NCBI GenBank assembly: GCA_015064205.1
Contig: SVSR01000001.1
Coordinates: forward strand, 119,840-183,839
Length of the DNA stretch: 64,000 bases
Direction: 5' to 3'
DNA from: Oscillospiraceae bacterium
Lineage (GTDB): Bacteria; Bacillota; Clostridia; Oscillospirales; CAG-272
Position numbers and translations under genes: made by a program
Notes under the pieces: generated by a model
The model's input: the letters and a program-made list of their open reading frames with translations, nothing else
Told to the model about the DNA's origin: nothing
The model's database searches: none
Shown here: piece by piece, positions 20,476 to 40,943 of the stretch
Position numbering within the stretch: position 1 is the first letter of the stretch
Layout: every line of letters starts with the position of its first letter

Positions 20476-20558
20476 ATATATTATCTTAAGCCCGGAAAAA
20501 ATATAAAAAAGTATCGCAAAAGCGATAATCTGCCGAAACGGCACGGAGGTAAAACAAA

Positions 20559-21218
20559 ATGAAAAAATTACTTGCACTTGTACTTGCTCTTATTATAGTT
20601 ACGGCAAGCTTCACCGGATGCTTCGGTGCAAAGGACGATCAGACAAGCGACGATACCGTTCTTGATACTACTGTTGAGAGCGAATCTGCCGATGATTCTG
20701 CGCAGAATGACGGCGCCGGCTTTACAACCGACATCGAGCTTATTGAAAGCAAGCCCACAGCTGAAACAAACGACGTTGCAATAGAGGATATTCACACAGC
20801 TATCAAGGAGCTCTTTGGGGAAAACTATCTTCCTTCAATGCCTCTTGATACTGAATACCTTGAAATGACCTACGGCGTAAAGCCCGAATGGATCGAAAGC
20901 TACGTTGCAGAGATCCCCATGATCAGCTTCCACGTTGATACACTTATTGCAATAAAGGCTGCTGACGGTCAGGCTGATAACGTCGAGAGTGCTCTTAACG
21001 ATTACAGAACCTACGTTGTTGAAAACTCTCTCCAGTACCCTGCAAACGTTCCCAAGGTTAATGCTTCCAGAGTATACAGAGCAGGCGACTACGTATTCTT
21101 CCTCATGCTCGGCGTTGTAGGTGACGAATATATGGACGACGAAAACGGTGCGTACAACGTTGCTGTTGAAAACAATGAAAAGGTAGTTTCCAAGATAGAA
21201 GAGCTCCTTATCAAGTAA
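20559..21218 (+). CDS. DUF4358 family lipoprotein
   Basis: Lipobox ASFTGC; EYLEMTYGVKPEWIESYVAEIPMISFHVDTLIAIKAADGQADNVESALNDYRTYVVENSLQYPANVPKV. Confidence 0.8.
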   Translation: MKKLLALVLALIIVTASFTGCFGAKDDQTSDDTVLDTTVESESADDSAQNDGAGFTTDIELIESKPTAETNDVAIEDIHTAIKELFGENYLPSMPLDTEYLEMTYGVKPEWIESYVAEIPMISFHVDTLIAIKAADGQADNVESALNDYRTYVVENSLQYPANVPKVNASRVYRAGDYVFFLMLGVVGDEYMDDENGAYNVAVENNEKVVSKIEELLIK

Positions 21219-21250
21219 TAAAAGTTCAAATCAAATATCCGGTTTAAAGC

Positions 21251-21287
21251 TTTTGCCGGTCCCGAAAGCCGGGACCGGCAAAAATTT
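21251..21287 (+). terminator. Intrinsic terminator-like hairpin between the DUF4358 gene and the MBOAT gene
   Basis: TTTTGCCGGTCCC GAAAGCC GGGACCGGCAAAA, 13-bp perfect stem, followed by ATTTTAG. Confidence 0.75.
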
Positions 21288-21309
21288 TAGAGAAAGACGA
21301 GGCTTAATT

Positions 21310-22722: not shown

Positions 22723-22742
22723 GAGAAAGGCGGGTTAGTTAA

Positions 22743-23879
22743 ATGAAAAAATATAAAATAATCGTTTCGGCGTTTTTTATAGCCGCCCTTGCCTTTTTGA
22801 CTGTTGCAAGCATGGTAAATCCCGTACGCGAGAGATCTGAAAGTGAAAACCGTAATCTTGCGCAGATGCCCAAGCTTTCTGTAAAAAGTGTATTTGACGG
22901 CAGCTTTACTAAAGGCTATGAGGATTTTGTAACCGATCAGTTCGTATGGCGCGATATGTGGATACAGTTAAAATCAAGCGTTGAGCGCATGATGGGCAAA
23001 ACCCTTTCAAACGGCGTGTATTTTGCAGACGATAACTATTTTATCGAGCACAAATCAAATGCGGACGTTGACTCAGAGTTGCTTGAAAGGAATATAGGAT
23101 TTCTCAAAGCTTTCGTTGAGAATATGTCTGCGCAGACAGACGGTAAGGCGCTTGTTTCAATTGCGCCGACGGCTTCTGCTGTGCTTGCAGACAAGCTTCC
23201 GAAATTCAACGATGAGTATGACTGGAATGCCGCGCTTGATAATATTGCAGATATTCTGGGCGACTCTTTTGTTGATCTCAGAGAAGTCCTTAATGAGCAT
23301 AAAGACGAGTATGTTTTTTACCGCACAGACCATCACTGGACGACGGACGGCGCGTATTATGCATACAGCGAGATCATAAAGGAGTTTGGCTTTGAGCCTC
23401 TTGCCAAAGAGGATTTTGCGCGTATTGTGCTAAGCGAGGATTTCCTCGGCACGGTTATTGCCAAGCTCAATATAAAAACAGAACCCGACGTTATGGTGAA
23501 ATACGAGGCAATAAGCGAAAATCCCATAAGCGTAAGCTATAATCTCGGAGCAAAGGTCACGAATACGCTATATGATGGCTCAAAGCTTGATACGCGCGAT
23601 AAATACGCATATTATCTTGGCGGAAACGACGCGCTTATCGAGATAAACACAACCGTTGACAATGACCGTGTACTAATGATCGCCAAGGATTCATATGCAA
23701 ACTGCCTGATACCTTTTCTGACTTCTCATTTTGAAAAGATATACGTTGTTGATCTAAGATATTTCAATCTCGGTGTATCCGAATATACAAAGCAGACAGG
23801 CGACGTTACCGACGCGCTGGTGCTCTACAATGCTTCAGGGTTTGCCGCGGACAGATATGTATTCAAGCTTTCACGCTGA
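22743..23879 (+). CDS. DHHW family (AlgJ/AlgX-like SGNH) protein
   Basis: N-terminal TM anchor, SENRNLAQMPKLS, FYRTDHHWTTDGAYYAY, LMIAKDSYANCLIPFL; downstream of MBOAT. Confidence 0.88.
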   Translation: MKKYKIIVSAFFIAALAFLTVASMVNPVRERSESENRNLAQMPKLSVKSVFDGSFTKGYEDFVTDQFVWRDMWIQLKSSVERMMGKTLSNGVYFADDNYFIEHKSNADVDSELLERNIGFLKAFVENMSAQTDGKALVSIAPTASAVLADKLPKFNDEYDWNAALDNIADILGDSFVDLREVLNEHKDEYVFYRTDHHWTTDGAYYAYSEIIKEFGFEPLAKEDFARIVLSEDFLGTVIAKLNIKTEPDVMVKYEAISENPISVSYNLGAKVTNTLYDGSKLDTRDKYAYYLGGNDALIEINTTVDNDRVLMIAKDSYANCLIPFLTSHFEKIYVVDLRYFNLGVSEYTKQTGDVTDALVLYNASGFAADRYVFKLSR

Positions 23880-23920
23880 CATGCAACTGTTAATAAAATA
23901 TAAAAAATATACACGGGTAC

Positions 23921-23949
23921 TTGTAAAAGAAATATATCTGTTGTATAAT
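23921..23949 (+). promoter_or_regulatory. Sigma-A-type promoter of upp
   Basis: TTGTAA - 17 nt - TATAAT. Confidence 0.75.
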
Positions 23950-23986
23950 AACTGTTAGTTTATAATTGCAAACGGAGGGCATAAGA

Positions 23987-24616
23987 TTGGGCGGACTTCA
24001 TATAATCGATCATCCTATGATCCAGCATAAGCTGACTATAATGAGAAGCAAGAAAACTGGAAGTAAGGATTTCAGAGAACTTCTTGAGGAAATTGCAATG
24101 TTTATGGGCTATGAGCTCACACGTGATCTGCCGCTTAAAGATGTGGAAATAGAAACTCCGATGTCGAAAATGACTGCAAAGACCATAGCAGGTAAGAAGC
24201 TTGCGATAGTTCCGATACTAAGAGCGGGACTTGGTATGGTGGACGGGCTCTTAAGCCTTGTACCTGTTGCAAAGGTAGGTCACATAGGCTTATACAGAGA
24301 TCCTGCAACCCATGCGCCGGTAGAGTATTACTGCAAGCTTCCTATGGACATAGAGGAGAGGATAGTTATCGTTGTTGACCCAATGCTTGCAACGGGCGGC
24401 AGTGCGTCTGATGCCATAAGGCTCTTAAAGGAAAAGGGTTGCACGAACTTAAGGCTTATGTCGCTTGTTGCGGCACCCGACGGAGTTGAAAAGGTGTTGT
24501 CCGATCACCCTGATGTTGATATATTTGTTGCGGCGCTTGATGAAAAGCTCGACGATCACGCGTATATTCTCCCGGGTCTTGGCGATGCAGGCGACAGACT
24601 TTTCGGAACAAAATAA
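23987..24616 (+). CDS. upp: Uracil phosphoribosyltransferase
   Basis: [55 protein letters not shown] start at 23987 preceded by GGAGG (track start is 21 nt upstream). Confidence 0.95.
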
Positions 24617-24671
24617 AACAGTGAAGCCAAGGGTGTGTTGCATAGCAATATACCCTTGATTGGTTAAATAT

Positions 24672-25655
24672 ATGAGAATTCTTTACATAGGTAAAAACGA
24701 TGCGGGGCAAAGGCTGGATAAGTTTATTACAAAAACTCTGAAGGCTTTTCCGATGCCGCTTTTATATAAATCGATACGAACAAAGAAAATAAAGGTAAAC
24801 CGCAAGCGTACAGAACCGGGATACGTGCTTCTGGAGGGCGATACGGTACAGCTGTTTATCGCTGAAGAATTTTTTGAGCCTGATGCCGCAGAGAGAGCTT
24901 TTATGAAATTAAAGCCGTCTATAGACGTGGTATATGAGGACGAGAATATAATACTTGTCAACAAACAGCCCGGGCTTATAGTACATTCGGATGAAAACGA
25001 AGAGGTTAATACGCTTATAGGTCATATCAAGGCTTATCTTTATAAAAAAGGTGAATATGACCCCGATAACGAGCAGTCGTTTGCTCCCGCACTCTGCAAC
25101 CGTATAGACAGAAACACGGGCGGGATCGTGCTTGCGGCAAAAACTGCGGCGGCACTCCGCTTTTTCAATGAAAAAATCAAAATGCACGAACTTGATAAAT
25201 ACTATCTGTGCGCTGTGCACGGCAAAATGCCAAAGCGTGAGGATACGCTTGTCGGATATCTGAAAAAGGATACGGACAAGAATATGGTAGATATTAAAGA
25301 AAAAGGCGCGGCAGGGTATAAGGAGATAATAACCAAATATAAGCTGCTTGAACAAAAAGGCGAGCTCTCGCTTCTTGAAATAGAACTTATAACGGGGAAA
25401 ACCCATCAGATAAGAGCGCATATGTCATCTATCGGCCATCCGCTTCTGGGCGACGGCAAATACGGTATAAACAAAGACGACCGCAAGGCAGGATATGCAT
25501 ATCAGGCTCTTTATGCATATAAGCTCTGTTTCTCATATAAGAAAAGCAACTCAGAGTTTGATTATTTGTCAAATCAGAGCTTTACGTGCGATCCTTCAAA
25601 AATATATTTTCTGAAGGAGTTTGACTTATATAAAAAGGAAATGAAGGGAAAATAA
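24672..25655 (+). CDS. RluA family pseudouridine synthase
   Basis: DAGQRLDKFITKTL, NRIDRNTGGIVLAAKTAAALRFFNEKI, GKTHQIRAHMSSIGHPLLGDGKYG. Confidence 0.93.
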   Translation: MRILYIGKNDAGQRLDKFITKTLKAFPMPLLYKSIRTKKIKVNRKRTEPGYVLLEGDTVQLFIAEEFFEPDAAERAFMKLKPSIDVVYEDENIILVNKQPGLIVHSDENEEVNTLIGHIKAYLYKKGEYDPDNEQSFAPALCNRIDRNTGGIVLAAKTAAALRFFNEKIKMHELDKYYLCAVHGKMPKREDTLVGYLKKDTDKNMVDIKEKGAAGYKEIITKYKLLEQKGELSLLEIELITGKTHQIRAHMSSIGHPLLGDGKYGINKDDRKAGYAYQALYAYKLCFSYKKSNSEFDYLSNQSFTCDPSKIYFLKEFDLYKKEMKGK

Positions 25656-27608
25656 ATGGCACTTGCCGAAAAAAATAAAAAAACGTATAAAATATCCCTG
25701 CTTGCAAATCTGCTTGCATGGATAATATCGTCGGTTTTTTTAAACCTTGTACTTGAGGTGCTTCAGCGCCGCTCTTTATATGAAGCGTTGGTACATATGG
25801 TCAAAAGTGCGCCTATATTTTTGCTCAATACGGCTATAATCATGCTTTGCTCGTCATTTATGCTTATAGTGCGCCGAAAAATATTTGCGTTTGCGCTTCC
25901 TGCGTTTCTGTGGCTCATAGTGGGAGTAACCAATACGGTACTTCTGTCTTTAAGACCCCTGCCGATCTCGTTTTCGGATTTCAGGCTCGTTGCTGAAGCG
26001 CTGAATATGATGAAGCTTTACTTTAACATTTATGAGATATTGCTTATAGCTTTCGGAATACTTGCAGCTATATTTGTTCTCGTGTGGATCTTTGTCAAAA
26101 CACCGCAGTTTGAGTGCGGGATGAAAAAGAGCCTTTCGCTTTTTATTCCTCTTTTTTCTTTGCTGTTGGCTATGACTGTAATACTCGGTATTTTTGATTT
26201 CTTCCCTAGAAAAAACGAAACTCCAAACGAGTTTTACGAACGCAACGGATTTGTATATAATTTCTTTAAAAGCGCAAGAGCTACGGGACTGTATACACCC
26301 GAGGGTTACTCGGACGATGCACTTGCCGCATTCATGGCACAACTTGACGGACAAAAAGCAGACGTTCAGGACGAAAGACCTAACGTTATTGTGCTGCAGC
26401 TTGAGTCATTCTTCGATATGACGTGGATGCACGGAGTCAGCCTTTCAGAAGACCCTGTACCAAACTTCAGAAAATTAAAGGACGAGGGCGCAAGCGGATA
26501 CCTATACGTACCCTCATACGGCGGCGGAACGTCAAACGTTGAGTTTGAAATACTTACGGGTATGAATCTTGACCATTTCACAATAGGTGAGTCACCCTAT
26601 TACACGCTTCTTGACAAAAACGTCCTCTGGGATACGATGCCCTTTAATATGAAGCGCCTCGGATATACCGCTCACGCGATACACAATTACAACGCTCTTT
26701 TTTACGAGCGTCCCGTTGCGTATAATAACCTTGGCTTTGATACGTTTACACCTGTTGAATATATGAACGGCGTGTCGTTTAACAGTCAGGGCTGGACGCG
26801 AGACGGTGTAATAACCGATGAGGTAATAACGGCTCTTGATTCTACTGAGAACACAGACTTTGTGTTTGCTGTTTCTGTTCAGGCTCATGGACCTTATCCG
26901 TCGAAAGTCAGAGCAGACGAGTTTTCCGACTATATTGACGTGAAAGCGGACAATCTTAACGCAGAAGCGCTTGCAGGGCTCACTTACTATGCTTGTACGA
27001 TAAAGGAAATGGATAATATGCTCGGCGAGCTTGTGAGTGCTCTTGAAAATTATAAGGAAAAGTGTGTGCTCGTAGTTTACGGGGATCATCTTCCTGCGAT
27101 CGACTTCAGCGTTAATTATATAAGCGCGCCGAATGCATATACAACAGAGTATGCGATATGGTCAAATTATGATATAACGGCGGAAGACAAGCATCTTGAA
27201 ACATATCAGCTTATGGCGCACGTTCAGGATGTGCTTGATCTTGAAGAGGGAATACTTACCAAGTGCCATCTTAATTATGCGGACGAAGAAGAGTATCAGG
27301 AAAAACTAAAACTTATCGAGTTTTCAATGACAAGCTCGGAAAATGATATACGTGAAGACAAAATCAGTTATTCAACTCGTCCTATAAAGATAACGTCTAT
27401 AAGCCAAAATGCGGGAGATATAGTTGTGTACGGCGAGAATTTCACTCAATGCAGTAAGATCATGGTGGGGGAAGAAATAGTTGATACTGTGTTTAAGAGC
27501 TCCAAATGTATAGTAGCGGATACAGATTCGCTTGATATTCTTAAGGGAATTGCCGTGTGTCAGATGTCGCGAGACGGCAGTACGGTTCTTGAAACGATAA
27601 CAGAATAA
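25656..27608 (+). CDS. LTA synthase family protein (sulfatase-type phosphoglycerol transferase)
   Basis: N-terminal TM helices, NVIVLQLESFFDMTWM, YGGGTSNVEFEILTGMN, VYGDHLPAI; C-terminal IPT/Ig-like tail ITSISQNAGDIVVYGENFTQCSKIMVGEEIV. Confidence 0.9.
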   Translation: MALAEKNKKTYKISLLANLLAWIISSVFLNLVLEVLQRRSLYEALVHMVKSAPIFLLNTAIIMLCSSFMLIVRRKIFAFALPAFLWLIVGVTNTVLLSLRPLPISFSDFRLVAEALNMMKLYFNIYEILLIAFGILAAIFVLVWIFVKTPQFECGMKKSLSLFIPLFSLLLAMTVILGIFDFFPRKNETPNEFYERNGFVYNFFKSARATGLYTPEGYSDDALAAFMAQLDGQKADVQDERPNVIVLQLESFFDMTWMHGVSLSEDPVPNFRKLKDEGASGYLYVPSYGGGTSNVEFEILTGMNLDHFTIGESPYYTLLDKNVLWDTMPFNMKRLGYTAHAIHNYNALFYERPVAYNNLGFDTFTPVEYMNGVSFNSQGWTRDGVITDEVITALDSTENTDFVFAVSVQAHGPYPSKVRADEFSDYIDVKADNLNAEALAGLTYYACTIKEMDNMLGELVSALENYKEKCVLVVYGDHLPAIDFSVNYISAPNAYTTEYAIWSNYDITAEDKHLETYQLMAHVQDVLDLEEGILTKCHLNYADEEEYQEKLKLIEFSMTSSENDIREDKISYSTRPIKITSISQNAGDIVVYGENFTQCSKIMVGEEIVDTVFKSSKCIVADTDSLDILKGIAVCQMSRDGSTVLETITE

Positions 27609-28198: not shown

Positions 28199-28226
28199 TT
28201 GCAATATTATCTTATTATGTTATAAT
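28199..28226 (+). promoter_or_regulatory. Promoter of beta-helix paralog 1
   Basis: TTGCAA - 16 nt - TATAAT. Confidence 0.6.
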
Positions 28227-28293
28227 GTACATAACCTTGCGTACTTGTAATAATGTGCGTAATTATTTTAATATTATTCCCGGAGGAAGTATT

Positions 28294-29946
28294 ATGGGAA
28301 AGTTATTTTATGAAGAGGCAACAAACGAGCTTATCAAAAAGTATAATGATGAAGCAACGGCACTTGTTGAAGAAATTAAAAACTCTCCGACAAACGTTGA
28401 AGTAACCGGTACAAAGTACTATGTGTCTTCAAGCGAGGGCGATGACAGTAACGACGGTCTTTCTCCTGAAAGAGCATGGAAAAGTGTACAGAAGGTAAAC
28501 AGCTTTACCTTTAGGTACGGTGACGGCGTATTCTTCAAGCGCGGCGACGACTGGAGAATAAAGGATCCCCTCAGAGTATACTCGGGCATGACCGTTTCCG
28601 CATACGGAGAGGGTAAGAAACCGAGACTTATCGGCTCGGTTGATGCATCGGGTGCAGACAAGTGGGAAAAGACCGAATATGAGAATATATGGAGATACAA
28701 GGAAAAGATAGGCGGCTTTGAATATAACGTAGGTGCGATCATATTTGACGGCGGACGTGCGTGGGGTATTCACGTTTCTCCGATGGATGACGGTTGCCGT
28801 GTTGATAACGGTACAGTATTCAACGGCTTTGAAACCTATACAATAGAAAGAGGACCGTTTGCAGGTGCCAAGGATCTTCAGGGTAACCTTGAGTTCTATC
28901 ATGAGATAGCACGTGATCCGAGCGTTGATACTCTTTATCTCTATTGCAGAGAGGGTAACCCCGGCGAAGTCTTCAAGTCTATCGAACTTTTAGACCGCGG
29001 AGAGCTTATCAATATTCTCGACGGCGAACCTCAGGACTGGAATAAGACTACTTCATCTGATATTATGGTAGATAATATTGATATGTATGCGGCGTGCTTC
29101 GGCGTTGGCGCACATAACGTAAAGAACGTAACCGTACAGTACTGTACGTTCAGATGGATGGGCGGTTCCATCCAGGGTATAAATATGTTCGGCAGAAACT
29201 TTTCAACACGTTACGGTAATGCTATTGAGTCGTTCGGATATGCTGACGGCTTCATTATGAGATATAACTATGCAACACAGGTATATGACTGTTGCTGGAC
29301 TGCACAGCACACGGGTGCTGTAAGATTCAATAACGTTCAGATGTACAAGAATGTTGCGGACTTTGCAAATACAGGCCCTGAAGTATGGATCGGCTCGGGA
29401 GGAAGTGTAACAAATCTTCAGATACACGACAACTATAACCGTTATATGGGCTATGGCTTCTCTCATCAGAGACCTGCTATATCTTCTCCCCATGACAAAA
29501 AGGGCTCAGGCTGGATAGGTGCGGGCGGTATATTCTACGGCGAATATGTAACACACCTTGCACCAGGTTCCGAATTCTATGGAAATGACGTTTACAATAA
29601 CGTCAATATGTTTGCAGACTCAGGACTCAGCCAAGCGAGATTCGTACATCCCAAGACATATAATTTCCACGACAATATATGCATACTTGAAGAGGGTAAG
29701 CGTTTTGGCAAGTGGGCACCGTATGATGCAAAGGATAATGTGTGCATTCCCGAAGATGCCAACAAGCCCGAGATTATTGACGGAGAAGAATATCCGCCGT
29801 CAAGAATGTATATGTACAATAAAGAAGACCTTGAAGAGCTTGCCGGATACGGCATTGAACCGGGCACAAAGTTCTACTTTACAAAACCGGGAAGTCAGGG
29901 TAACCTTTTCGAATATTCGCTTCCTGACAGCGGTTATATTCTGTAA
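28294..29946 (+). CDS. Right-handed beta-helix-like protein, paralog 1 of 4
   Basis: ATG preceded by GGAGG (track start 28225 too far upstream); TKYYVSSSEGDDSNDGLSPERAWKSVQKVNSFTFRYGDGVFFKRGDDWR is the N-terminal pattern common in right-handed parallel beta-helix / polysaccharide lyase-like proteins; no signal peptide visible. Confidence 0.72.
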   Translation: MGKLFYEEATNELIKKYNDEATALVEEIKNSPTNVEVTGTKYYVSSSEGDDSNDGLSPERAWKSVQKVNSFTFRYGDGVFFKRGDDWRIKDPLRVYSGMTVSAYGEGKKPRLIGSVDASGADKWEKTEYENIWRYKEKIGGFEYNVGAIIFDGGRAWGIHVSPMDDGCRVDNGTVFNGFETYTIERGPFAGAKDLQGNLEFYHEIARDPSVDTLYLYCREGNPGEVFKSIELLDRGELINILDGEPQDWNKTTSSDIMVDNIDMYAACFGVGAHNVKNVTVQYCTFRWMGGSIQGINMFGRNFSTRYGNAIESFGYADGFIMRYNYATQVYDCCWTAQHTGAVRFNNVQMYKNVADFANTGPEVWIGSGGSVTNLQIHDNYNRYMGYGFSHQRPAISSPHDKKGSGWIGAGGIFYGEYVTHLAPGSEFYGNDVYNNVNMFADSGLSQARFVHPKTYNFHDNICILEEGKRFGKWAPYDAKDNVCIPEDANKPEIIDGEEYPPSRMYMYNKEDLEELAGYGIEPGTKFYFTKPGSQGNLFEYSLPDSGYIL

Positions 29947-29956
29947 TTTTTTACAT

Positions 29957-29988
29957 AAGCACGGAAACGTTTTGTCTCCGTGCTTTTC
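29957..29988 (+). terminator. Terminator of paralog 1
   Basis: AAGCACGGA ... TCCGTGCTTTT. Confidence 0.75.
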
Positions 29989-30112
29989 TTTGGAAAAATC
30001 CGCAATAATTGTCTACTTTTTAAAAATGTTTTGTCTTGAAGTGCAGATTTTTATTGTGTTAAAATATTGATATAGCAAAAACGTTGGTTAATAAATTCAA
30101 GGAGATAGCATT

Positions 30113-31693
30113 ATGGAAAAGAAGCCGGTAATTTACGAGCTTGCAAGTGATGAGCTTGTAAAAAAATATCTTGATGAATCTCAGGCGCTTGCCAAAGAGA
30201 TAATCAATTCTCCCACAAATGTTGAGATCAAGGGTACAAAGTACTACGTATCTTCCAGTGAGGGTGACGATAATAATGATGGTCTCAGCCCTGCTACTGC
30301 ATGGAAGAGTATTGATAAACTTAACAATACTACTTTTGTCCACGGTGATGGTGTACTCTTTAAAAGAGGTGACGAGTGGAGATATAAGGATGCGCTTCTC
30401 GGCAGAAGCGGTGTTACTTATACAGCATACGGTGAAGGTAAGAAGCCGAGACTCAACGGCTCTGTTGATGCTTCAAGTCCTGATGACTGGGAAAAGACAG
30501 AATACGAAAACGTATGGCATTACACAAAGAAAACGGGTGGTTTCCAGTATAACGTAGGTTGTATCGTATTTGACGGCGGCCGTGCGTGGGGTGTGCTTGT
30601 AACACCTACAAGAAATGGACTTACCATTGACCGTGGAGAAGTATTCAATGGTCTTGAATACTATGAAAATCCGGTTGAAGAATTTAAGGGACCTGCATCA
30701 CTTAAGTGCAATCTTGAATTCCATCACAGTATTGCGAACGAGGACCCGAGTGTTGACGATCTCTGGCTTTACTGCAAGGACGGAAACCCCGGTCATGTGT
30801 TTAAAACAATAGACTTTGTAGACCGTGGTTCAACTATGTGGCTTGCTCCGGACAAAGAAACAAACTGGGCAAGCGATATAGTTGTTGATAATATTGATTT
30901 CTACGGCGCTTGCTTTGGTGTTGCTTGCGGAAATATCAGAAACACGGTTGTACAGTACTGCACATTCAGATGGATAGGCGGACCTGTTCAGGGTGTATGG
31001 ATGTTCGGCGGCAATTCATGGGTGCGTTACGGAAATGCGATCGAGTCGTTTGGCCGCAGCGACGGATTTATTATGAGATATAACTATGGAACACACGTAT
31101 ATGACTGTTGTTGGACTGTTCAGCACACAGGCGCAGTATCGTTTAATGACGTTCAGATATACAAGAATGTTGCAGACTTCTCAAATACCGGCCCTGAAGT
31201 ATGGATCGGAAACGGCGGACACGTAACAAATCTTCAGATTCACGACAACTACAACCGTTTTATCGGGTATGGCTGGTCGCATCAGCGCCCTTCTGGCCCT
31301 AACCTTAACAATAAGAAGGAGAATGGTTGGATAGGCGCGGGCGGTATCTTCTATGGTGCGTATGTAACTCATGAATCTGAAGGCTCAAAGTTTGAAAACA
31401 ATGATGTTTACCACAATGTAAATCTTTTTGCAGGCTCAGGATTAAGTGAAGCAAGATTTATACATCCCAAGACATATAACTTCCATGACAATATATGTAT
31501 CCTTGAAGAAGGAAAACGCTTTGGAAGATGGTTGCCCGCCCCTGCCGGAAGACTTTATAATTATAATAAAGAAGATCTTACGGAGATTGTAAAGCAGGGA
31601 CTTGAAAAGGGAACAGATTTCTACTATACAAAGCCAAATCCCCTTGGTGATATGTATAAGCTTTGCTTGCCCGATAGTGAATATATGCTTTGA
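30113..31693 (+). CDS. Right-handed beta-helix-like protein, paralog 2 of 4
   Basis: 526 aa, strongly similar to paralogs 3 and 4 along its whole length; same YYVSSSEGDDNNDGLSPATAWKSIDKLN motif. Confidence 0.75.
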   Translation: MEKKPVIYELASDELVKKYLDESQALAKEIINSPTNVEIKGTKYYVSSSEGDDNNDGLSPATAWKSIDKLNNTTFVHGDGVLFKRGDEWRYKDALLGRSGVTYTAYGEGKKPRLNGSVDASSPDDWEKTEYENVWHYTKKTGGFQYNVGCIVFDGGRAWGVLVTPTRNGLTIDRGEVFNGLEYYENPVEEFKGPASLKCNLEFHHSIANEDPSVDDLWLYCKDGNPGHVFKTIDFVDRGSTMWLAPDKETNWASDIVVDNIDFYGACFGVACGNIRNTVVQYCTFRWIGGPVQGVWMFGGNSWVRYGNAIESFGRSDGFIMRYNYGTHVYDCCWTVQHTGAVSFNDVQIYKNVADFSNTGPEVWIGNGGHVTNLQIHDNYNRFIGYGWSHQRPSGPNLNNKKENGWIGAGGIFYGAYVTHESEGSKFENNDVYHNVNLFAGSGLSEARFIHPKTYNFHDNICILEEGKRFGRWLPAPAGRLYNYNKEDLTEIVKQGLEKGTDFYYTKPNPLGDMYKLCLPDSEYML

Positions 31694-31703
31694 TATGAAT
31701 ATA

Positions 31704-31738
31704 AGACTGCAGGTACATTAAAGTGCCTGCAGTTATTT
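31704..31738 (+). terminator. Terminator of paralog 2
   Basis: ACTGCAGGTAC ... GTGCCTGCAGT then TATTTATTTTG. Confidence 0.7.
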
Positions 31739-31804
31739 ATTTTGTTATGTATCCAAATCCGAAGAAAAAACATCTTTTTCATGTGAAAAGTGTCCGTTTT
31801 TCTA

Positions 31805-31833
31805 TTGTTATTTATTCTTTTGTATGATAATAT
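31805..31833 (+). promoter_or_regulatory. Promoter of beta-helix paralog 3
   Basis: TTGTTA - 17 nt - TAATAT; downstream leader GAAGGTACAATAACTGTAAAGGAG nearly identical to that of paralog 4. Confidence 0.65.
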
Positions 31834-31865
31834 GAAGGTACAATAACTGTAAAGGAGACGACTTT

Positions 31866-33446
31866 ATGGAAAAGAATCAGATAATTTATGAGCTTGCAAG
31901 CGATGAGCTTGTAAAAAAGTATCTTGATGAGTCTCAGGCACTTGCAAAAGAGATAATCAACTCCAAAACAAATGTCGAAATCAAGGGAACAAAGTACTAC
32001 GTATCTTCGAGCGAGGGTGACGATAATAATGATGGTCTTAGCCCTGCTACTGCATGGAAGAGTATAGATAAATTAAATAACACCAAATTCGCTTGCGGTG
32101 ACGGTGTGTTCTTTAAGAGAGGCGATGAGTGGAGGTATAAGGATGCGCTTAACGCACAGAGCGGTGTAACCTATTCAGCGTACGGTGAGGGTAAAAAGCC
32201 GACACTTAACGGCTCCGTTGACGCCTCAAGTCCGGATGACTGGGAAAAGACGGAGTATGAAAATGTATGGCATTATACGAAAAAAACAGGCGGTTTTACG
32301 TACAATGTAGGCTGTATCGTATTTGACGGCGGACGCGCGTGGGGTGTGCTTGTAACACCTACAAGAAACGGACTTACCATAGACCGCGGATGTGTATTCA
32401 ACGGACTTGAATATTACGAAAATCCTGTGGAAGAATTCAAAGGCCCTGCATCTTTAAAGTGTAACCTCGAATTCCATCACAGTATTGATAATGAAGACCC
32501 TACTGTTGACGACCTCTGGCTTTACTGCAAAGACGGCAACCCCGGTGAAGTATTCAAGACCATCGACCTTGTAGATCGCGGTATAGCGCTGTATCTTAAT
32601 CCCGACAAGGAAACAAACTGGGCAAGCGACATAGTTGTTGATAATATTGATTTCTATGGTGCGTGCTTTGGTGTCGGCGCGGCAAACGTCAGAAATTCGG
32701 TAGTACAGTACTGTACGTTCCGCTGGATAGGCGGTCCCGTTCAGGGCGTATATTTTTTTGGGGGAGATTCGTGGGTGCGTTACGGTAATGCTATCGAATC
32801 TTTCGGCTATAGTGACGGATTCATTATGAGATATAACTACGGAACTCACGTATACGACTGCTGTTGGACAGTTCAGCATTCGGGCGCAGTTTCGTTTAAT
32901 GATGTTCAGATATATAAAAATGTTGCGGATTTCTCAAATACCGGTCCTGAAGTGTGGATAGGGGATGGCGGACACATTACAAATCTTCAGATACACGATA
33001 ACTACAACCGTTTTATCGGTTACGGCTGGTCGCATCAGCGTCCGAGTGTGCCAAGCCTTAATGATAAAAAAGCAGATGGCTGGATAGGCGCGGGCGGTAC
33101 TTTCTACGGTGCGTATGTAACTCACGAATCTGAAGGCTCCAAGTTTGAAAACAATGACGTTTATAACAATATAAATCTTTTTGCGGGCTGGGGGCTCAGT
33201 GAAGCGAAATTCGTTCATCCCGATACGTATAATTTCCACGACAATATATGTGTTATGGAAGAGGGTAAGATGTTCGGATTATGGGATCTGCCTCCTGCCG
33301 GAAGACTTTATAAGTATGATAAGGCAGACCTTACCGAGCTTGTGGAAAACGGTATTGAAAAGGGAACAGACTTCTATTATACAAAGCCTGAGCCTTTTGG
33401 GGACATGTATAAGCTTTGTCTTCCCGATTCGGAATATATGCTTTAA
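31866..33446 (+). CDS. Right-handed beta-helix-like protein, paralog 3 of 4
   Basis: 526 aa, same family. Confidence 0.75.
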   Translation: MEKNQIIYELASDELVKKYLDESQALAKEIINSKTNVEIKGTKYYVSSSEGDDNNDGLSPATAWKSIDKLNNTKFACGDGVFFKRGDEWRYKDALNAQSGVTYSAYGEGKKPTLNGSVDASSPDDWEKTEYENVWHYTKKTGGFTYNVGCIVFDGGRAWGVLVTPTRNGLTIDRGCVFNGLEYYENPVEEFKGPASLKCNLEFHHSIDNEDPTVDDLWLYCKDGNPGEVFKTIDLVDRGIALYLNPDKETNWASDIVVDNIDFYGACFGVGAANVRNSVVQYCTFRWIGGPVQGVYFFGGDSWVRYGNAIESFGYSDGFIMRYNYGTHVYDCCWTVQHSGAVSFNDVQIYKNVADFSNTGPEVWIGDGGHITNLQIHDNYNRFIGYGWSHQRPSVPSLNDKKADGWIGAGGTFYGAYVTHESEGSKFENNDVYNNINLFAGWGLSEAKFVHPDTYNFHDNICVMEEGKMFGLWDLPPAGRLYKYDKADLTELVENGIEKGTDFYYTKPEPFGDMYKLCLPDSEYML

Positions 33447-33456
33447 TATTTTTCAT

Positions 33457-33490
33457 AAACACGCAGACGTAACGATCTGCGTGTTTTTAT
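33457..33490 (+). terminator. Terminator of paralog 3
   Basis: AAACACGCAGA ... TCTGCGTGTTTTT. Confidence 0.8.
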
Positions 33491-33550
33491 GTGCTTGTCC
33501 AAACTCGAAGAAAAAATAGCCGTATTTTAAGAAAAGTAGCCAAAAGCCTA

Positions 33551-33579
33551 TTGCTATTTGTTTTTTTATATGGTAATAT
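33551..33579 (+). promoter_or_regulatory. Promoter of beta-helix paralog 4
   Basis: TTGCTA - 17 nt - TAATAT, leader shared with paralog 3. Confidence 0.65.
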
Positions 33580-33612
33580 GAAGGTACAATAACTGTAAAG
33601 GAGGCGACTTTT

Positions 33613-35193
33613 ATGGGAAAGAAGCCGATAATTTATGAGCTTGCAAGCGATGAGCTTGTAAAAAAGTATCTTGATGAATCTCAGGCACTTGCTAAAGAGA
33701 TAATAAATTCTGAGTCAAATGTTGAGATAAAGGGTACAAAATACTACGTATCTTCAAGCGAGGGTGATGACAATAATGACGGTCTTACCCCTGCTACAGC
33801 GTGGAAGAGCATTGACAAATTAAATAAGACTAAATTTGCGTATGGAGACGGAGTTCTCTTCAAACGCGGAGATGAGTGGAGATATAAAGATGCGCTCAAC
33901 GGTCAGAGCGGTGTTACCTATACTGCGTACGGAGAAGGTAAAAAGCCGAGACTTAACGGCTCAGTTGACGCGTCAAGTCCCGATGACTGGGAAAAGACAG
34001 AGTTTGAGAATGTGTGGCATTATACCAAGAAGACGGGCGGTTTTACATACAACGTAGGCTGTATCGTGTTTGACGGCGGCCGTGCCTGGGGTGTTCTTGT
34101 AACTCCTGTAAAAAGCGGTGAAACTATCGACCGCGGTGTGGTATTCAACGGACTTGAATACTATGAAAATCCTGTTGAAATGTTCAAAGGTCCTGCATCG
34201 CTCAAGTGCAACCTTGAATTCCATCACAGTATCGCTAACGAAGACCCGACTGTTGACGACCTCTGGCTTTACTGCAAGGACGGTAATCCCGGTGAAGTCT
34301 TTGACACTATTGACCTTGTAGACCGTGGAACAACAATGTGGCTTGAGGCTGATCCCGAAACAAAATGGGCGCACGATATAGTTGTTGACAATATTGATTT
34401 TTACGGAGCATGCTTCGGCGTTGCCTGTGGAAATGTAAAGAATACGGTAGTTCAGAACTGCACGTTCAGATGGATAGGCGGTCCAGTTCAGGGTGTATGG
34501 ATGTTTGGCGGCGATACGTGGGTACGCTACGGTAACGCTATCGAATGCTTCGGCCGCTGCGACGGATTTATTATGAGATACAATTACGCAACTCACGTGT
34601 ACGACTGTTGCTGGACTGCACAGCATACGGGCAAGGTTTCCTTTAACGACGTACAGATTTACAAAAATGTTGCTGATTTCTCAAATACCGGTCCTGAAGT
34701 GTGGATAGGAGACGGCGGACATATAACGAATCTTCAGATACACGATAACTACAATCGCTTCATGGGCTACGGCTGGTCGCATCAACGCCCTGCATATCCG
34801 AATTATTTAAGCAAGAAGGAAAGCGGCTGGATAGGCGCCGGCGGTATCTTCTACGGTGCATATGTAACTCATGAATCTGAAGGCTCAAAGTTTGAAAACA
34901 ATGATGTTTACCACAATGTAAATCTTTTTGCAGGCTCAGGATTAAGTGAAGCAAGATTTATACATCCCAAGACATATAACTTCCATGACAATATATGTAT
35001 CCTTGAAGAAGGAAAACGCTTTGGAAGATGGTTGCCCGCCCCTGCCGGAAGACTTTATAATTATAATAAAGAAGATCTTACGGAGATTGTAAAGCAGGGA
35101 CTTGAAAAGGGAACAGATTTCTACTATACAAAGCCCAATCCCCTTGGCGATATGTATAAGCTTTGTTTGCCCGATAGTGAATATATGCTTTGA
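33613..35193 (+). CDS. Right-handed beta-helix-like protein, paralog 4 of 4
   Basis: 526 aa, same family; 3' end nearly identical in DNA to paralog 2. Confidence 0.75.
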   Translation: MGKKPIIYELASDELVKKYLDESQALAKEIINSESNVEIKGTKYYVSSSEGDDNNDGLTPATAWKSIDKLNKTKFAYGDGVLFKRGDEWRYKDALNGQSGVTYTAYGEGKKPRLNGSVDASSPDDWEKTEFENVWHYTKKTGGFTYNVGCIVFDGGRAWGVLVTPVKSGETIDRGVVFNGLEYYENPVEMFKGPASLKCNLEFHHSIANEDPTVDDLWLYCKDGNPGEVFDTIDLVDRGTTMWLEADPETKWAHDIVVDNIDFYGACFGVACGNVKNTVVQNCTFRWIGGPVQGVWMFGGDTWVRYGNAIECFGRCDGFIMRYNYATHVYDCCWTAQHTGKVSFNDVQIYKNVADFSNTGPEVWIGDGGHITNLQIHDNYNRFMGYGWSHQRPAYPNYLSKKESGWIGAGGIFYGAYVTHESEGSKFENNDVYHNVNLFAGSGLSEARFIHPKTYNFHDNICILEEGKRFGRWLPAPAGRLYNYNKEDLTEIVKQGLEKGTDFYYTKPNPLGDMYKLCLPDSEYML

Positions 35194-35205
35194 TTTGAGT
35201 GTTCT

Positions 35206-35241
35206 AAAAACACGCAGGAGTAACATTCTGCGTGTTTTTTT
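35206..35241 (+). terminator. Terminator of paralog 4
   Basis: AAAAACACGCAG ... CTGCGTGTTTTTTT. Confidence 0.85.
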
Positions 35242-35388
35242 GTCTATTAGAAACAAAATGCTAAAAATGTTTTTGTAGATACTGACAGATGCATTCCCCC
35301 TTGAAAACAAAGGATAAATATGGTATAATACTATTGTATAGATATGCATGGTATTTATATTATCCAAATTTGATCCGGGAGGAAAAAC

Positions 35389-37686
35389 ATGAAAAGAATT
35401 TTATCAACATTACTTGCTGTTTTGATGATAGCATCATCATTAACAGTATTTACATCCGTGGGTGCTCTGAGTACTGCACCTGAGTATAGCGAAGCTTTTA
35501 ATGCTATAGTTGTAGCGTCGGGCGCGACAATCGACAGTGCGGCAAAGATTACTGCACTTGCAGACCAGAATAAGGTTGACACTCTTTTAGTTATTGCAGA
35601 GGGAAAGACAAGCCTTTCTTTAAAATTATCGGGCAAGGCTGCGGCTGCACTTGGCGCAAAGGGGATGAACGTAAAGGCAACACTTGTTGGCGGAAGCCTT
35701 GTACTTAATTCAAATTGCTTGAAGGAAATAGGAAGCAAGGCAAGCGTTGATTTTGAGCTTCTTATTGATGCTGCAGACGGCTTTAAAGTATCTTACAAAT
35801 GCGACGGCGCTCCGATGGTATTTGAAAGCGTACCGATGGCTTACGGTATATCAAGCGATCCGGTATACAACATTGTCAGCTCTGACAAGGGCAATATAGG
35901 CTTTTCGTATATTGAAGCACTTACATGGGGATATGCGGTTAAGGAGGATCTCACAGCTAAGCTTGCAACTGCTCCTGTTCCTGAATTTACGGATGTAAGC
36001 GCTGATTTCTGGGGACGTGCGAATATTGAATATGCAACTTCAAAGGGTTACTTCAACGGAACGGGTAACGGAACATTTACACCTAACGGCGAAATGACCA
36101 GAGGCATGGTAGTTACCGTTCTTTCACGTATAGACAGCGCTCCTGACAAGGAGATTACATATACATACACAGACGTAAACAAGAGCGCATGGTTTGCAAA
36201 GGGTGTAAACTGGGCATATGAAAATGATATCGTAGACGGCGGAGATAAGTTCAGACCCGACGACTCGATAACAAGACTTGAACTTATGGATATGCTTTAC
36301 AGATATGCGCTTAAAATGGGTATTGCAGGCGATCTTGAAGGTAAGTATCTCAACTTCATGGATGCAGATATGATAACCGACGAGGGCGATAAAAAGGCGG
36401 CACTTTACTGCACGAGCACCGGTATCGTTACAGGCTACGGTTCGGGCGTAACAGTAAGACTCAGACCTGAGCGTGGTGCAACCAGAACTGAAGTTGCAAC
36501 TATGATACAGAGATTCATGAAAAACGCAGTGCTTGGAGGCACAGTTATGGGTACAAGCGGAAAGTATGCTGACTTTATTACAGTCAGAAGCGATCTTAAC
36601 AATCTTTACAACAAGATGAAGGAAAACTCGGCGGTAAGAGTAACGTATCTCGGCGGTTCTGTAACCGTTGGCGCAGGCTCTACAAATGCTGAGCTGAATT
36701 CGTGGAGAGGCATTACTTATCAGTGGCTTCTTGATGCTTCACCCAAAGCAGCGGTTATACAGAATAATGTGGCTATGGGAGGCACAGGCTCACACCTTGG
36801 CGCTTTCAGAACACAGGTGGACGTAGTTGACCAAAAGCCTGATCTGTTATTCATCGAATTTGCGGTTAACGATTCTTATTGCGGCACACATTCTGCAGGA
36901 AATGCCACACTTTACTATGAGCAGATAGTAAGACAGGTAAGAGAAGCGCTTCCCGAGTGCGAAATAATTGCAATCTACGTTACAGATACTTATGCATCGT
37001 CACTTGCAGACGCGGCACTTGGCAGTGTAGCTAAGGCACATGAGGTTGTATGTGAAAAGTACGGTATCACATCTATCAACGTTGGCGGAGCACTCTGGCG
37101 TGAAATAAGAGAGACGGGCAAACAGTGGGGAGACTATGTTTCAGATGTAGTACATCCCGAAGATGCAGGTTACAGAATTTATGCAGACTGTATCATTGAA
37201 TACTTAGAAGAATATCTTACAGGAGCGCCTACGTATACATACTCCAATACAGAGGCTTACGGACTTCCTGCAGATTATGCAGACAAGAGAAATGAGACTA
37301 TGAAGCTTGAGGTTATACAGTTAACAGATGAGTCTGTATTTGATAGCATTAAGGGCTTTGAGTTTAGCGATGGCATATCTACGTCAACAAAGCTTGAAGG
37401 TACGATATATCCGGTTGAAGCGGACAACGAGTTTACTATAACCTTTGAGGGAACAGGACTTGACTTCTTTGGCTCTGTAAGTGCGGAATACACTTTTGAG
37501 TATTCTATCGACGGCGGTGAATTCAAGGAAAAGAAGATGCTTAAGCATGATGCACCGTTTGCTTTTATAGACGGACTTGAGCCCGGAAAGCATACATTTA
37601 CTTTCAGAAATAAGGGTAAAACCGGTAATGGTGACGTAAATTCCGGCATGACACTCAAAGCAATATTTGTTCATGGCCTGAAGTAA
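35389..37686 (+). CDS. Secreted SLH-domain SGNH/GDSL esterase (signal peptide, novel N-terminal region, three SLH repeats, SGNH hydrolase, C-terminal jelly-roll-like domain)
   Basis: 765 aa; FTDVSADFWGRANIEYATSKGYFNGTGNGTFTPNGEMTRGMVVTVLSRI (SLH); VTYLGGSVTVGAGS, GGTGSHLG, EFAVNDSY, VVHPEDAGY (SGNH blocks). Confidence 0.88.
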   Translation: MKRILSTLLAVLMIASSLTVFTSVGALSTAPEYSEAFNAIVVASGATIDSAAKITALADQNKVDTLLVIAEGKTSLSLKLSGKAAAALGAKGMNVKATLVGGSLVLNSNCLKEIGSKASVDFELLIDAADGFKVSYKCDGAPMVFESVPMAYGISSDPVYNIVSSDKGNIGFSYIEALTWGYAVKEDLTAKLATAPVPEFTDVSADFWGRANIEYATSKGYFNGTGNGTFTPNGEMTRGMVVTVLSRIDSAPDKEITYTYTDVNKSAWFAKGVNWAYENDIVDGGDKFRPDDSITRLELMDMLYRYALKMGIAGDLEGKYLNFMDADMITDEGDKKAALYCTSTGIVTGYGSGVTVRLRPERGATRTEVATMIQRFMKNAVLGGTVMGTSGKYADFITVRSDLNNLYNKMKENSAVRVTYLGGSVTVGAGSTNAELNSWRGITYQWLLDASPKAAVIQNNVAMGGTGSHLGAFRTQVDVVDQKPDLLFIEFAVNDSYCGTHSAGNATLYYEQIVRQVREALPECEIIAIYVTDTYASSLADAALGSVAKAHEVVCEKYGITSINVGGALWREIRETGKQWGDYVSDVVHPEDAGYRIYADCIIEYLEEYLTGAPTYTYSNTEAYGLPADYADKRNETMKLEVIQLTDESVFDSIKGFEFSDGISTSTKLEGTIYPVEADNEFTITFEGTGLDFFGSVSAEYTFEYSIDGGEFKEKKMLKHDAPFAFIDGLEPGKHTFTFRNKGKTGNGDVNSGMTLKAIFVHGLK

Positions 37687-37700
37687 TGTTCAGACTATAT

Positions 37701-37730
37701 AACAGGCGCACATAAGTGCGCCTGTTTGTT
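37701..37730 (+). terminator. Terminator of the SLH-esterase gene
   Basis: AACAGGCGCAC ATAA GTGCGCCTGTT TG. Confidence 0.8.
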
Positions 37731-37866
37731 TATTTTTTACAATGTATATTGAATTTTTTCGTAAACTTTCACATGTAAAATATGGTTGAATAAATTCTAT
37801 GTTTATGATATAATATATCTACATTTCGCAATATCGAAAATATAAAATATATTAGGAGAAATAACT

Positions 37867-39300
37867 ATGAAAAAAGTATTGGCATTATTCCTTGCAGTGC
37901 TTTTTGTTATGGCGCCCTTGGCTGTATCCGCAGAAAGCGTATACGGCGACGTAGATGAAAACGGCGCTGTAAATTCTGTTGACGTTATAAAGCTTGCAAG
38001 ACATCTCGCAGGATGGGGAGGTTATGAAAGTGTTAATGAAACTTTCGCCGATGTAAACGGTGACAGTGCGCTCACACCTTTAGACAACATTGTTCTTTCG
38101 AGACACTGGGCAGGCTGGAGCGCTTATGGAATACTTCCTTTTACAGGAGAAATTGTACAGAAAGAAATCATTGATGAAAATATCACAGTAAGAAGTGATC
38201 TGAGCAACGTTTATAACAAGCTTACTTCAGACGAAGAAGTTGTTGTAACATATCTCGGCGGTTCTGTAACGTACGGTTTCGGAACAAACACACCCGAACA
38301 GACATCTTGGAGAGCACTTACATACAAGTGGCTTACAGATAACTTCCCGGATGCAAACCTCAAGCAGAACAACGTAGCTATCGGAGGTACAGGCTCGCAC
38401 CTCGGTGCTTTCAGAACACAGCTTGACGTTATTGATAAGAACACAGACCTTCTTTTCGTTGAATTCTGTGTAAACGACAGCTATTGCGGTACTGCCAAGG
38501 CAGGCCTTGCAACTCTCTTCTACGAGCAGATAATCCGTCAGGTAAGAGAAGAGCTTCCCGACTGCCAGGTAATCGCAGTATTTACAAGAGATATTTACAG
38601 TGTTGCTACTCACGGCAAGACCTCTATCGCCAGAATGCACGATGCAGTATGCGAAAGATACGGTATAACATCCATTGACGTTGGACATGAGCTTTCTCAG
38701 GCGTTGAATTACAGCAGCGCTGACTGGGATCTGTATTTTGATAACGATGACGTTGTGCATCCTGCTGACGGTGGATACAAGGTATATGCAGACCTTATCA
38801 TCAAGTATCTTGACAAGTACCTTGCAGATGATGATGTTGTTGCAGAATACACAAGCGAAATTGTAGAATACGCAATGCCTGAAGGTTACTCAGATGCCAG
38901 AAATGCAACTACAAAGCTTGAAACAGTACAGCTTGATTCAACAAGCGTACTTTACAGCTCAAAGGGAATTGGCGTAAATTCTACCGCTAAGTATCAGGCG
39001 TCTAATCTTACCGGTTATATTTATCCGACTGCGGCTGATAATGAAGTAGTATTCAAGTTTACGGGAACTGCAGTTGATATACTTGCAAGTTCACAGTATA
39101 TTGAGTATTCAATCGACGGCGGCAAGCCTGTTACAAAGAAGTTCAATGCAGACGTTGACCCGAACCCGCCGTTCTATCTTGTTGACGGTCTTGAACCTAC
39201 AGAACACACTCTTAAGATCAAGTTCTTAGGTTCAAACGGAACAGGCGACGTATCGAGCAGTAATATGATCAGAGCATTCTTTGTAAGAGGAATTAAGTAA
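37867..39300 (+). CDS. Secreted SGNH/GDSL esterase with N-terminal dockerin type I-like module
   Basis: 477 aa; signal peptide; two Ca-binding loops DVDENGAVNSVD and DVNGDSALTPLD each followed by a (A/S)RH(L/W)AGW helix; SGNH blocks VTYLGGSVTYGFG, GGTGSHLG, EFCVNDSY, VVHPADGGY; C-terminus homologous to the neighbour. Confidence 0.87.
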   Translation: MKKVLALFLAVLFVMAPLAVSAESVYGDVDENGAVNSVDVIKLARHLAGWGGYESVNETFADVNGDSALTPLDNIVLSRHWAGWSAYGILPFTGEIVQKEIIDENITVRSDLSNVYNKLTSDEEVVVTYLGGSVTYGFGTNTPEQTSWRALTYKWLTDNFPDANLKQNNVAIGGTGSHLGAFRTQLDVIDKNTDLLFVEFCVNDSYCGTAKAGLATLFYEQIIRQVREELPDCQVIAVFTRDIYSVATHGKTSIARMHDAVCERYGITSIDVGHELSQALNYSSADWDLYFDNDDVVHPADGGYKVYADLIIKYLDKYLADDDVVAEYTSEIVEYAMPEGYSDARNATTKLETVQLDSTSVLYSSKGIGVNSTAKYQASNLTGYIYPTAADNEVVFKFTGTAVDILASSQYIEYSIDGGKPVTKKFNADVDPNPPFYLVDGLEPTEHTLKIKFLGSNGTGDVSSSNMIRAFFVRGIK

Positions 39301-39312
39301 TAACTTATCACT

Positions 39313-39340
39313 AAAAGGCACTCCGAAAGGAGTGCCTTTT
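39313..39340 (+). terminator. Terminator of the dockerin-esterase gene
   Basis: AAAAGGCACTCC GAAA GGAGTGCCTTTT. Confidence 0.9.
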
Positions 39341-39398
39341 GTCATAGCCTTGATCATTTACTCATAAAGATTAAGTAAAGGATTAAGGGTGTGGTAAA

Positions 39399-40943
39399 AT
39401 GAAAACAAGTGCAAGAGAGATATTCACGGGCGGAATAATACTGAGTTTGACGGCGCTTATTATGAGAAGCGTATCGGTTGCGTTCAATGTTTACGTATCG
39501 GGTAAGATCGGTGCGGCGGGAATGGGACTTCTTACGCTGATAATGAGCGTGTATTCCTTAGCAGTGACTTTTGCCGTATCGGGTATTTCCCTTGCCAGTA
39601 CAAGATTGACCGCAGAAGCGATCGGCTCAGGAAGAAAAGAGGACGTGCGATCGGCTATGAGACGCTGCCTTATATATTCGTTTATTTTCGGCAGCGCTAC
39701 GTTTATCGCTTTGTTTTTTGCGTCAGACTTTATCGCTGCATGCTGGCTTGACGATATGCGATGCAGCCGACCTATAAAGCTTTTTGCAATAAGTATGCCG
39801 TTTATATCGATGTCGTCTGCTATGCAAGGGTATTTTACGGCATTAAGGAGAGTTAACAAAAGTGCGTCAGCGCAGTTCTTTGAGCAACTTATAAGGATTT
39901 TCGCAACAACGACTCTGCTTACTTTGATAGCGCCCAAAGGTATTGAATACGCGTGTATTGCCGTCATATGCGGCGGCACGGTTTCGGAAATAATGTCATT
40001 TATTTATACCTTTGTTATGTATAAATACGATTTGTCGAAAAACTTCAGAAAGGTAAGTGGGGTATCTGCAGGACTTACAAAAAAGATGTGCCGTATAGCA
40101 ATGCCGGTTGCCTTTTCAGCTTATATTCGTACCGGACTTGTGACTCTTGAGCATATGCTAATACCTTACGGACTGAAAAAATACGGGGCAACGTCTGATA
40201 GAAGCCTTGAAACATACGGTGTTCTGCAGGGAATGGTACTTCCGATAATACTGTTTCCGACAGCGTTTCTCTCTTCGTTCAATCTTTTGCTCGTCCCGGA
40301 GCTTGCCGCGGCGTCGGCAAAAGGTGAGAAGCGGCATATAAACTATATCGGCGAGCGATTTTTGCGCTTTACTATGATGTTTGCCGTTGGGGTTGCAGGT
40401 ATTATGATGTGTTTTTCGCATGAGATAGGATACGTCATATATAAAAACCATGAGGCCTGCGATTTTATTAAAACGGTAGCGCCTCTTATACCTATAATGT
40501 ATCTTGACAGCGCTGTGGATACCATGCTTAAAGGACTTGACGAGCAGCTGTTTAACATGAGGATCAACATTATCGACGCCGCAGTAAGCGCCGCGCTCGT
40601 TTACTTTCTATGTCCCAAAATCGGTATAATGGGATATATTATCACGATATTTGCAAGCGAGATATTTAATCTCTCATGCAGCATGGTCAGGCTTATGAAC
40701 GTGACGGGATTAAATATCAGGGTAATGTCGTTTGTTATAAAACCTCTTGCATGCGTTTTTGCATCGTGTACTTTTGTAAAGTTCATGCTTGACGCGGCGC
40801 GTGCCATTGCTTGTTCATATCTGTCTTTGTTTGTACACCTCTTTCTTGCTCTTTTGTTCTACGTTTTGTTCCTTTTGCTTACATATACTCTTGACAGCGA
40901 CGACAGAGCATTCATAAAACGGCTTTTTAAATCGGGAAAATAA
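39399..40943 (+). CDS. SpoVB/MurJ-type polysaccharide flippase
   Basis: 514 aa, about 12-14 TM; EIFTGGIILSLTALIMRSVSVAFNVYVSGKIGAAGMGLLTLIMSVYSLAVTFAVSGI. Confidence 0.85.
   Translation: MKTSAREIFTGGIILSLTALIMRSVSVAFNVYVSGKIGAAGMGLLTLIMSVYSLAVTFAVSGISLASTRLTAEAIGSGRKEDVRSAMRRCLIYSFIFGSATFIALFFASDFIAACWLDDMRCSRPIKLFAISMPFISMSSAMQGYFTALRRVNKSASAQFFEQLIRIFATTTLLTLIAPKGIEYACIAVICGGTVSEIMSFIYTFVMYKYDLSKNFRKVSGVSAGLTKKMCRIAMPVAFSAYIRTGLVTLEHMLIPYGLKKYGATSDRSLETYGVLQGMVLPIILFPTAFLSSFNLLLVPELAAASAKGEKRHINYIGERFLRFTMMFAVGVAGIMMCFSHEIGYVIYKNHEACDFIKTVAPLIPIMYLDSAVDTMLKGLDEQLFNMRINIIDAAVSAALVYFLCPKIGIMGYIITIFASEIFNLSCSMVRLMNVTGLNIRVMSFVIKPLACVFASCTFVKFMLDAARAIACSYLSLFVHLFLALLFYVLFLLLTYTLDSDDRAFIKRLFKSGK

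Follow-up and report, generated by a model that had tools for sequence, protein, structure and literature searches.

A leaderless array of beta-helix proteins next to surface SGNH esterases: a candidate glycan-active family predicted on both sides of the membrane

The six plus-strand genes at 28199–39340 of the window (the whole 64,000-nucleotide stretch analysed, from a 1.65 Mb MAG that is 88% complete) are four paralogs followed by two SGNH hydrolases, and the paralogs are best read as members of an uncharacterised, CAZyme-like beta-helix family that would act on a complex glycan, probably an acetylated one, both within the cell and outside it. We favour, with a probability of a little under 60%, a scheme in which these four leaderless proteins form a glycosidase- or lyase-type array that would finish imported oligosaccharides in the cytosol, with the surface SGNH enzymes and exported members of the family acting outside; catalysis, substrate, import and the cooperation of the esterases with the array are the parts of this proposal that we infer. 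The original prediction, made from the sequence alone, had beta-helix proteins and esterases acting together on a glycan at the cell surface; its glycan role and its fold hold up, and it did not take in the exported copies elsewhere in the genome or the expansion of the family across the genus.

The predicted arrangement of four tandem paralogs on one strand, directly followed by two homologous esterases, is borne out. The paralog reading frames align over their full length with 65–91% protein identity; paralog 1 (P0001) is 65–66% identical to the other three, and identity to P0002 is 88% for P0003 and 91% for P0004. The two esterases are 50% identical over 382 residues. Paralogs 2–4 are 81–85% identical at the DNA level and are under purifying selection, as their dN/dS values are 0.07–0.09, and genes 2 and 4 are nearly identical (95–100%) over their final ~300 bp, which suggests recent gene conversion at their 3' ends. 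A hairpin lies downstream of all six genes (-14.9 to -21.6 kcal/mol, z -4.4 to -7.5), in agreement with the individual terminators that had been proposed, and a simple terminator scanner picks up just three of them. The further claim that each paralog has its own promoter stands only in part: the region contains 37 promoter-like sites against 35.6 in shuffled sequence, a total not above chance, and convincing sites precede genes 1, 5 and 6 only, so that among the four paralogs just the first has one. Gene calls also confirm that no transporter, regulator or classical glycoside hydrolase is present among the genes inside the block, which does not contain the importer and regulator linked to enzymes that characterise a polysaccharide utilisation locus.

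Table 1. Features of the array, the esterase genes and the right flank (window coordinates)
Feature	Position	Strand	Details
Promoter-like site 5' of paralog 1	28199..28226	+	TTGCAA-16-TATAAT, TG before -10, 10/12
Leaderless beta-helix paralog 1, 550 aa	28294..29946	+	GGAGG before ATG 28294
Terminator-like hairpin	29957..29985	+	-14.9 kcal/mol, z -5.1
Leaderless beta-helix paralog 2, 526 aa (copy modelled)	30113..31693	+	frame closes 6 codons before ATG
Terminator-like hairpin	31705..31734	+	-20.9 kcal/mol, z -6.5; also in simple scan
Leaderless beta-helix paralog 3, 526 aa	31866..33446	+	ORF, full-length alignment
Terminator-like hairpin	33454..33491	+	-16.6 kcal/mol, z -4.4
Leaderless beta-helix paralog 4, 526 aa	33613..35193	+	91% identical to paralog 2
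Terminator-like hairpin	35206..35239	+	-18.7 kcal/mol, z -5.5; also in simple scan
Promoter-like site 5' of SLH-SGNH gene	35301..35329	+	TTGAAA-17-TATAAT, 11/12, TG before -10
Secreted SGNH esterase with three SLH domains, 765 aa	35389..37686	+	Pfam SLH 4.6e-22, Lipase_GDSL_2 1.8e-21
Terminator-like hairpin	37701..37726	+	-20.0 kcal/mol, z -6.5; also in simple scan
Secreted SGNH esterase with type I dockerin, 477 aa	37867..39300	+	Pfam Dockerin_1 1.3e-10, Lipase_GDSL_2 4.4e-18
Terminator-like hairpin	39312..39341	+	-21.6 kcal/mol, z -7.5
SpoVB-like flippase, right flank, outside system	39399..40943	+	Polysacc_synt 1.6e-15; TIGR02900 1.9e-80, below cut-off

Profile searches find 11 copies of the beta-helix family in this genome, and, in three sister genomes, 21 (G101), 36 (G118) and 48 (G044); by contig matches these three correspond to UBA4717, RGIG9949 (yak rectum) and RGIG4639 (roe deer rectum), respectively. 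The family makes up about 1.4% of the assembled DNA here, 2.4% in G101, 8.6% in G118 (1.2 Mb, 51% complete) and 5.9% in G044 (2.2 Mb, also incomplete); copies in the latter two include those on L153–L159. Matches are present in 28 of 118 sampled genomes of the bacterial family, mostly as one to three copies outside the genus, and relatives beyond it include proteins of ruminant Alistipes, whose leaders are of the Sec or lipoprotein type, and others from Verrucomicrobia MAGs and Acetatifactor muris. A profile scan of genome contigs recovered 306 relatives, and a single-protein scan of the same contigs recovered none.

Each of the four window paralogs has an ATG start preceded by a good ribosome-binding site, and the frame upstream of it ends within 6–34 codons and encodes no hydrophobic leader (that of paralog 1 is open for at most 34 aa and has none); no signal peptide or anchoring module was found in any of the four, leader status being assigned by a hydrophobicity rule rather than by SignalP. 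Both esterases have a signal peptide plus an SLH or dockerin module. As judged from these sequence features, the four paralogs are most likely cytosolic, and array and esterases most likely lie on opposite sides of the membrane. Among the 11 copies in this genome, the window four and one distant copy (C5) are leaderless, four have a signal peptide and SLH domains (three on C32, one on C4), and two, both on C11, have a signal peptide and a dockerin. The window four form one clade in a tree of 138 cores (support 100), which nests with the signal-peptide copies of its own genome on C32 (SLH) and C11 (dockerin; support 99). At least 15 changes of leaderless status fall on branches of this tree that are well supported; exported forms in the family are of SLH, dockerin and lipoprotein types, with repeated switching between these and leaderless forms. 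Leaderless cores are richer than exported ones in Cys (2.5 versus 1.6%), Glu and Lys and poorer in Asn, Ser and Thr, which is the usual contrast of cytosolic with secreted proteins; their make-up is of the cytosolic type. With kinship controlled, the Cys contrast goes the same way in about 5–8 and the opposite way in 0.3–1.4 of 15 independent pairs and is marginal (median p 0.016–0.07, depending on threshold).

The original placement of surface beta-helix proteins beside surface esterases is contradicted by the missing signal peptides of the paralogs, set against those of the esterases, and by the composition of the leaderless group. The beta-helix proteins could still act outside if they left the cell by a non-classical route or by lysis and then stuck to the surface, and their adjacency to surface SGNH esterases in three species, as well as the existence of secreted homologs, would agree with this. 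We note that in two sister species the leaderless arrays include a leaderless SGNH protein with a Big_2 domain (L048:4695–6134 and L148:5519–6982). This domain type is usually extracellular and is odd where an export signal is missing. The protein also favours an extracellular site of action, and because of it non-classical export of leaderless members is possible. Such action is nonetheless fairly unlikely, since leader and anchoring module are missing from every paralog in the array, the composition of the leaderless cores as a group is cytosolic, and SLH or dockerin export is available in the same genome yet unused here. Secreted copies (L041:6952–10131 and others) have one or two N-terminal domains of ~180 aa with the pattern YPYIKxxYRTDS...GESW...DIxYIACF; these domains match nothing in Pfam and may be a carbohydrate-binding module that has yet to be described. 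In G101 one leaderless copy (L048:12507–13979) has an in-frame TAG flagged in its start region and is perhaps decaying.

The predicted SGNH esterase identity is supported by Lipase_GDSL_2 matches of 77.9 and 66.8 bits (cut-off 32.9), and SGNH blocks I, II, III and V can be read in both proteins, P0005 and P0006 (GGSVT, GGTGS, NDSY and DVVHP). The first consists of a signal peptide, three SLH domains, a GDSL domain and, at the C-terminus, a domain with weak likeness to CE2_N, and the second of a signal peptide, a dockerin and a GDSL domain. Their nearest solved relative is RiCE17 (6hfz, 4.9e-17; the match spans query residues 11–219, the SGNH domain only), a 2-O-acetylmannan esterase with a C-terminal beta-domain (PMC9487903). 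The likeness to CE17/CE2 extends to the order of SGNH and then C-terminal beta-domain, which in the RiCE17 type is CBM35-like; on the other hand, the Faecalibacterium prausnitzii CE17 is described as intracellular, whereas the window esterases are exported with SLH or dockerin modules. A role of the pair as deacetylases is plausible on this homology. Contig C32 of the same genome has SLH-type beta-helix copies beside an exported SGNH esterase that is 50% identical to the window pair, and since this genome has seven cohesin matches, the dockerin copy possibly has docking partners.

Conservation of the neighbourhood, on which the original prediction had been staked, is found within the genus, as the locus occupies the same chromosomal place in the two sister species G101 and G044, where the flippase homologs are 60% and 74% identical, respectively. 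The order in G101 is an SLH-type family member, five leaderless members, the leaderless SGNH gene with Big_2, an SLH-SGNH gene and the SpoVB-like flippase gene. G044 contig C148 has a leaderless member, the leaderless Big_2 SGNH gene, a second leaderless member, an SLH-SGNH gene, the flippase gene and an M29 peptidase gene, and on contig C54 the left flank is present as far as the LTAS-like gene, followed by a cluster of family members. G118 yielded no match to the flippase and, at 51% completeness, is uninformative on synteny. Leaderless arrays of the sister genomes adjoin AraC-type regulators, and elsewhere leaderless members neighbour xylose-isomerase-like TIM barrels, GH3, GH5 and GH30; in A. 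muris a leaderless member comes after genes for a sugar-binding protein and a pair of ABC permeases, next to GH29, GH3, GH4 and a glucosamine-isomerase-family gene.

Within the window, 19405–27608 encodes an Acyl_transf_3 protein, an MBOAT O-acyltransferase, an AlgX-like DHHW protein and an LTA-synthase-like sulfatase, is conserved in G044, and is likely an envelope-polymer O-acylation cluster. With these genes just upstream, their left-side flank shared with G044 and the SpoVB-like flippase gene just downstream, the locus might remodel the cell's own O-acylated envelope polymer. We regard this as unlikely: most copies of the family, both within this genome and among other taxa, are away from such genes, several sit with importers and glycoside hydrolases, the flippase gene is probably a general flanking gene, and up to 48 copies better fits the use of dietary or host glycans.

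The beta-helix with a carbohydrate-active type of fold that had been proposed is supported by an AlphaFold model of paralog 2, run with an alignment of 50 relatives, which is a right-handed beta-helix (pLDDT 92.1, pTM 0.94) preceded by a sole N-terminal helix at residues 13–31. Its top PDB folds are the glycosidases GH136 6kqs (1.1e-8), GH120 XylC 3vst (3.1e-8) and GH141 BT_1002 5mqp (4.9e-8), all of them remote matches (TM about 0.25–0.40, 8–13% identity). No Pfam family matches the window paralogs above cut-off, no PHROGs family includes them, Pfam Beta_helix is the sole match and is found in 10 of 50 family members, and the literature searched yielded no published description of the family. 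Searched against BFVD, the fold matched nothing closer than remote beta-helix proteins of phages and viruses, and a special phage link was dropped for that reason. Residues R305, N308, E311, D331, Q337, E362 and N379 are 94–99% conserved over the 138 cores and are kept in all four window paralogs; E311 is at 94%, replaced mostly by Q. We think it likely that E311, D331 and E362 are the acid residues, and because R305, E311, D331, Q337 and E362 are conserved and intact throughout the array, its four proteins are probably active enzymes. No member of the family has a known activity, and expansions of decoy or sensing paralogs do occur in bacteria, so the leaderless copies could be non-catalytic glycan-binding or regulatory proteins kept after the loss of export; the retention of all the conserved acids and the low dN/dS make this distinctly improbable.

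The window family resembles GH136 (LnbX; Eubacterium ramulus 6kqs; Roseburia hominis RhLnb136) in its right-handed beta-helix, the fold of the GH136 catalytic domain, and in an N-terminal YYVSS.GDD.NDG motif, and a leaderless form is possible for GH136 in Clostridia (PMC7335108). Sequence similarity covers the N-terminal 80–110 residues only (PDB phmmer 3.6e-10 to 1.3e-11, NCBIfam 1.5e-9, profile 1.9e-17): NCBIfam NF047897 (GH136) gives 36 bits there against a cut-off of 2500, and a GH136 profile alignment, built from the only two GH136-like proteins that searches with NF047897 gave in Clostridia, matches well at the N-terminal motif only. Overall identity is about 12%. The GH136 protein ErLnb136 has the catalytic Asp pair D568/D575, 7 residues apart (PMC7335108); the motif DGxA[WFY]DxD, which we assign to this pair from its spacing, is absent from all 138 cores, and no gene for a LnbY-type partner (GH136 I-type) was called beside the array; no partner domain is seen in the model either, which has a single N-terminal helix. 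With a global TM of only about 0.25–0.38 in addition, it is very improbable that the paralogs are divergent GH136 lacto-N-biosidases, despite the N-terminal match and the top fold match. The GH120 beta-xylosidase XylC and BT_1002 of GH141, a family of xylanase or fucosidase activity, are matched remotely over the whole beta-helix (E 3e-8 and 5e-8), but identity is 8–12% and TM 0.31–0.40, and no Pfam match above cut-off places the window copies in either family.

In the cytosolic-finishing scheme that we prefer, the surface SGNH esterases would strip acyl, probably acetyl, groups outside the cell before or during polymer cutting, and exported members would cut the complex glycan while wall-bound through SLH domains or held on cohesin-type scaffolds through dockerins. 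Fragments would then enter through ABC importers encoded elsewhere, candidates being the six SBP_bac_1-type binding proteins of this genome, and the leaderless array, one of several in the genus, would finish them in the cytosol, its four proteins having shed the leader by which their secreted relatives are exported. R. hominis provides a precedent in its leaderless, intracellular GH136 (PMC7335108), and acetylated mannan oligosaccharides are known to be imported and then deacetylated inside by CE2/CE17 (PMC8262883). The scheme is like that of Gram-positive glycan utilisation loci (mannan/HMO, Roseburia, Faecalibacterium), in which surface cutting and ABC import are followed by cytosolic finishing with esterases (PMC8262883, PMC7335108). 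It differs from them in that the block has no importer, regulator or known glycoside hydrolase and that one enzyme family would be used on both sides of the membrane; the lack of an importer adjoining the array counts against it.

If active, these proteins would make up a large family of enzymes in bacteria of the herbivore gut, one for which Pfam has no entry matching the window copies and our searches gave no characterised member. At 1.4–8.6% of the assembled DNA in one genus, the family implies a glycan important enough to drive 11–48 copies, and the repeated gain or loss of leaders on one catalytic module offers a natural series for enzyme adaptation inside and outside the cell. A broader reading, to which we give somewhat less than even odds, is that one gut genus has made this single beta-helix family (diverged copies numbering up to about 48 in one genome) its main glycan toolkit by repeated crossing of the membrane, with SLH and scaffold copies outside, leaderless arrays inside and SGNH pairs on both sides; if true, this would amount to a new CAZyme family and to a strategy in which one fold serves two compartments. 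We note that just left of the window (L147:11156–16127) a further exported SGNH protein, 33% identical, is encoded beside two lipoprotein genes, and the same stretch also holds SBP_bac_1 matches.
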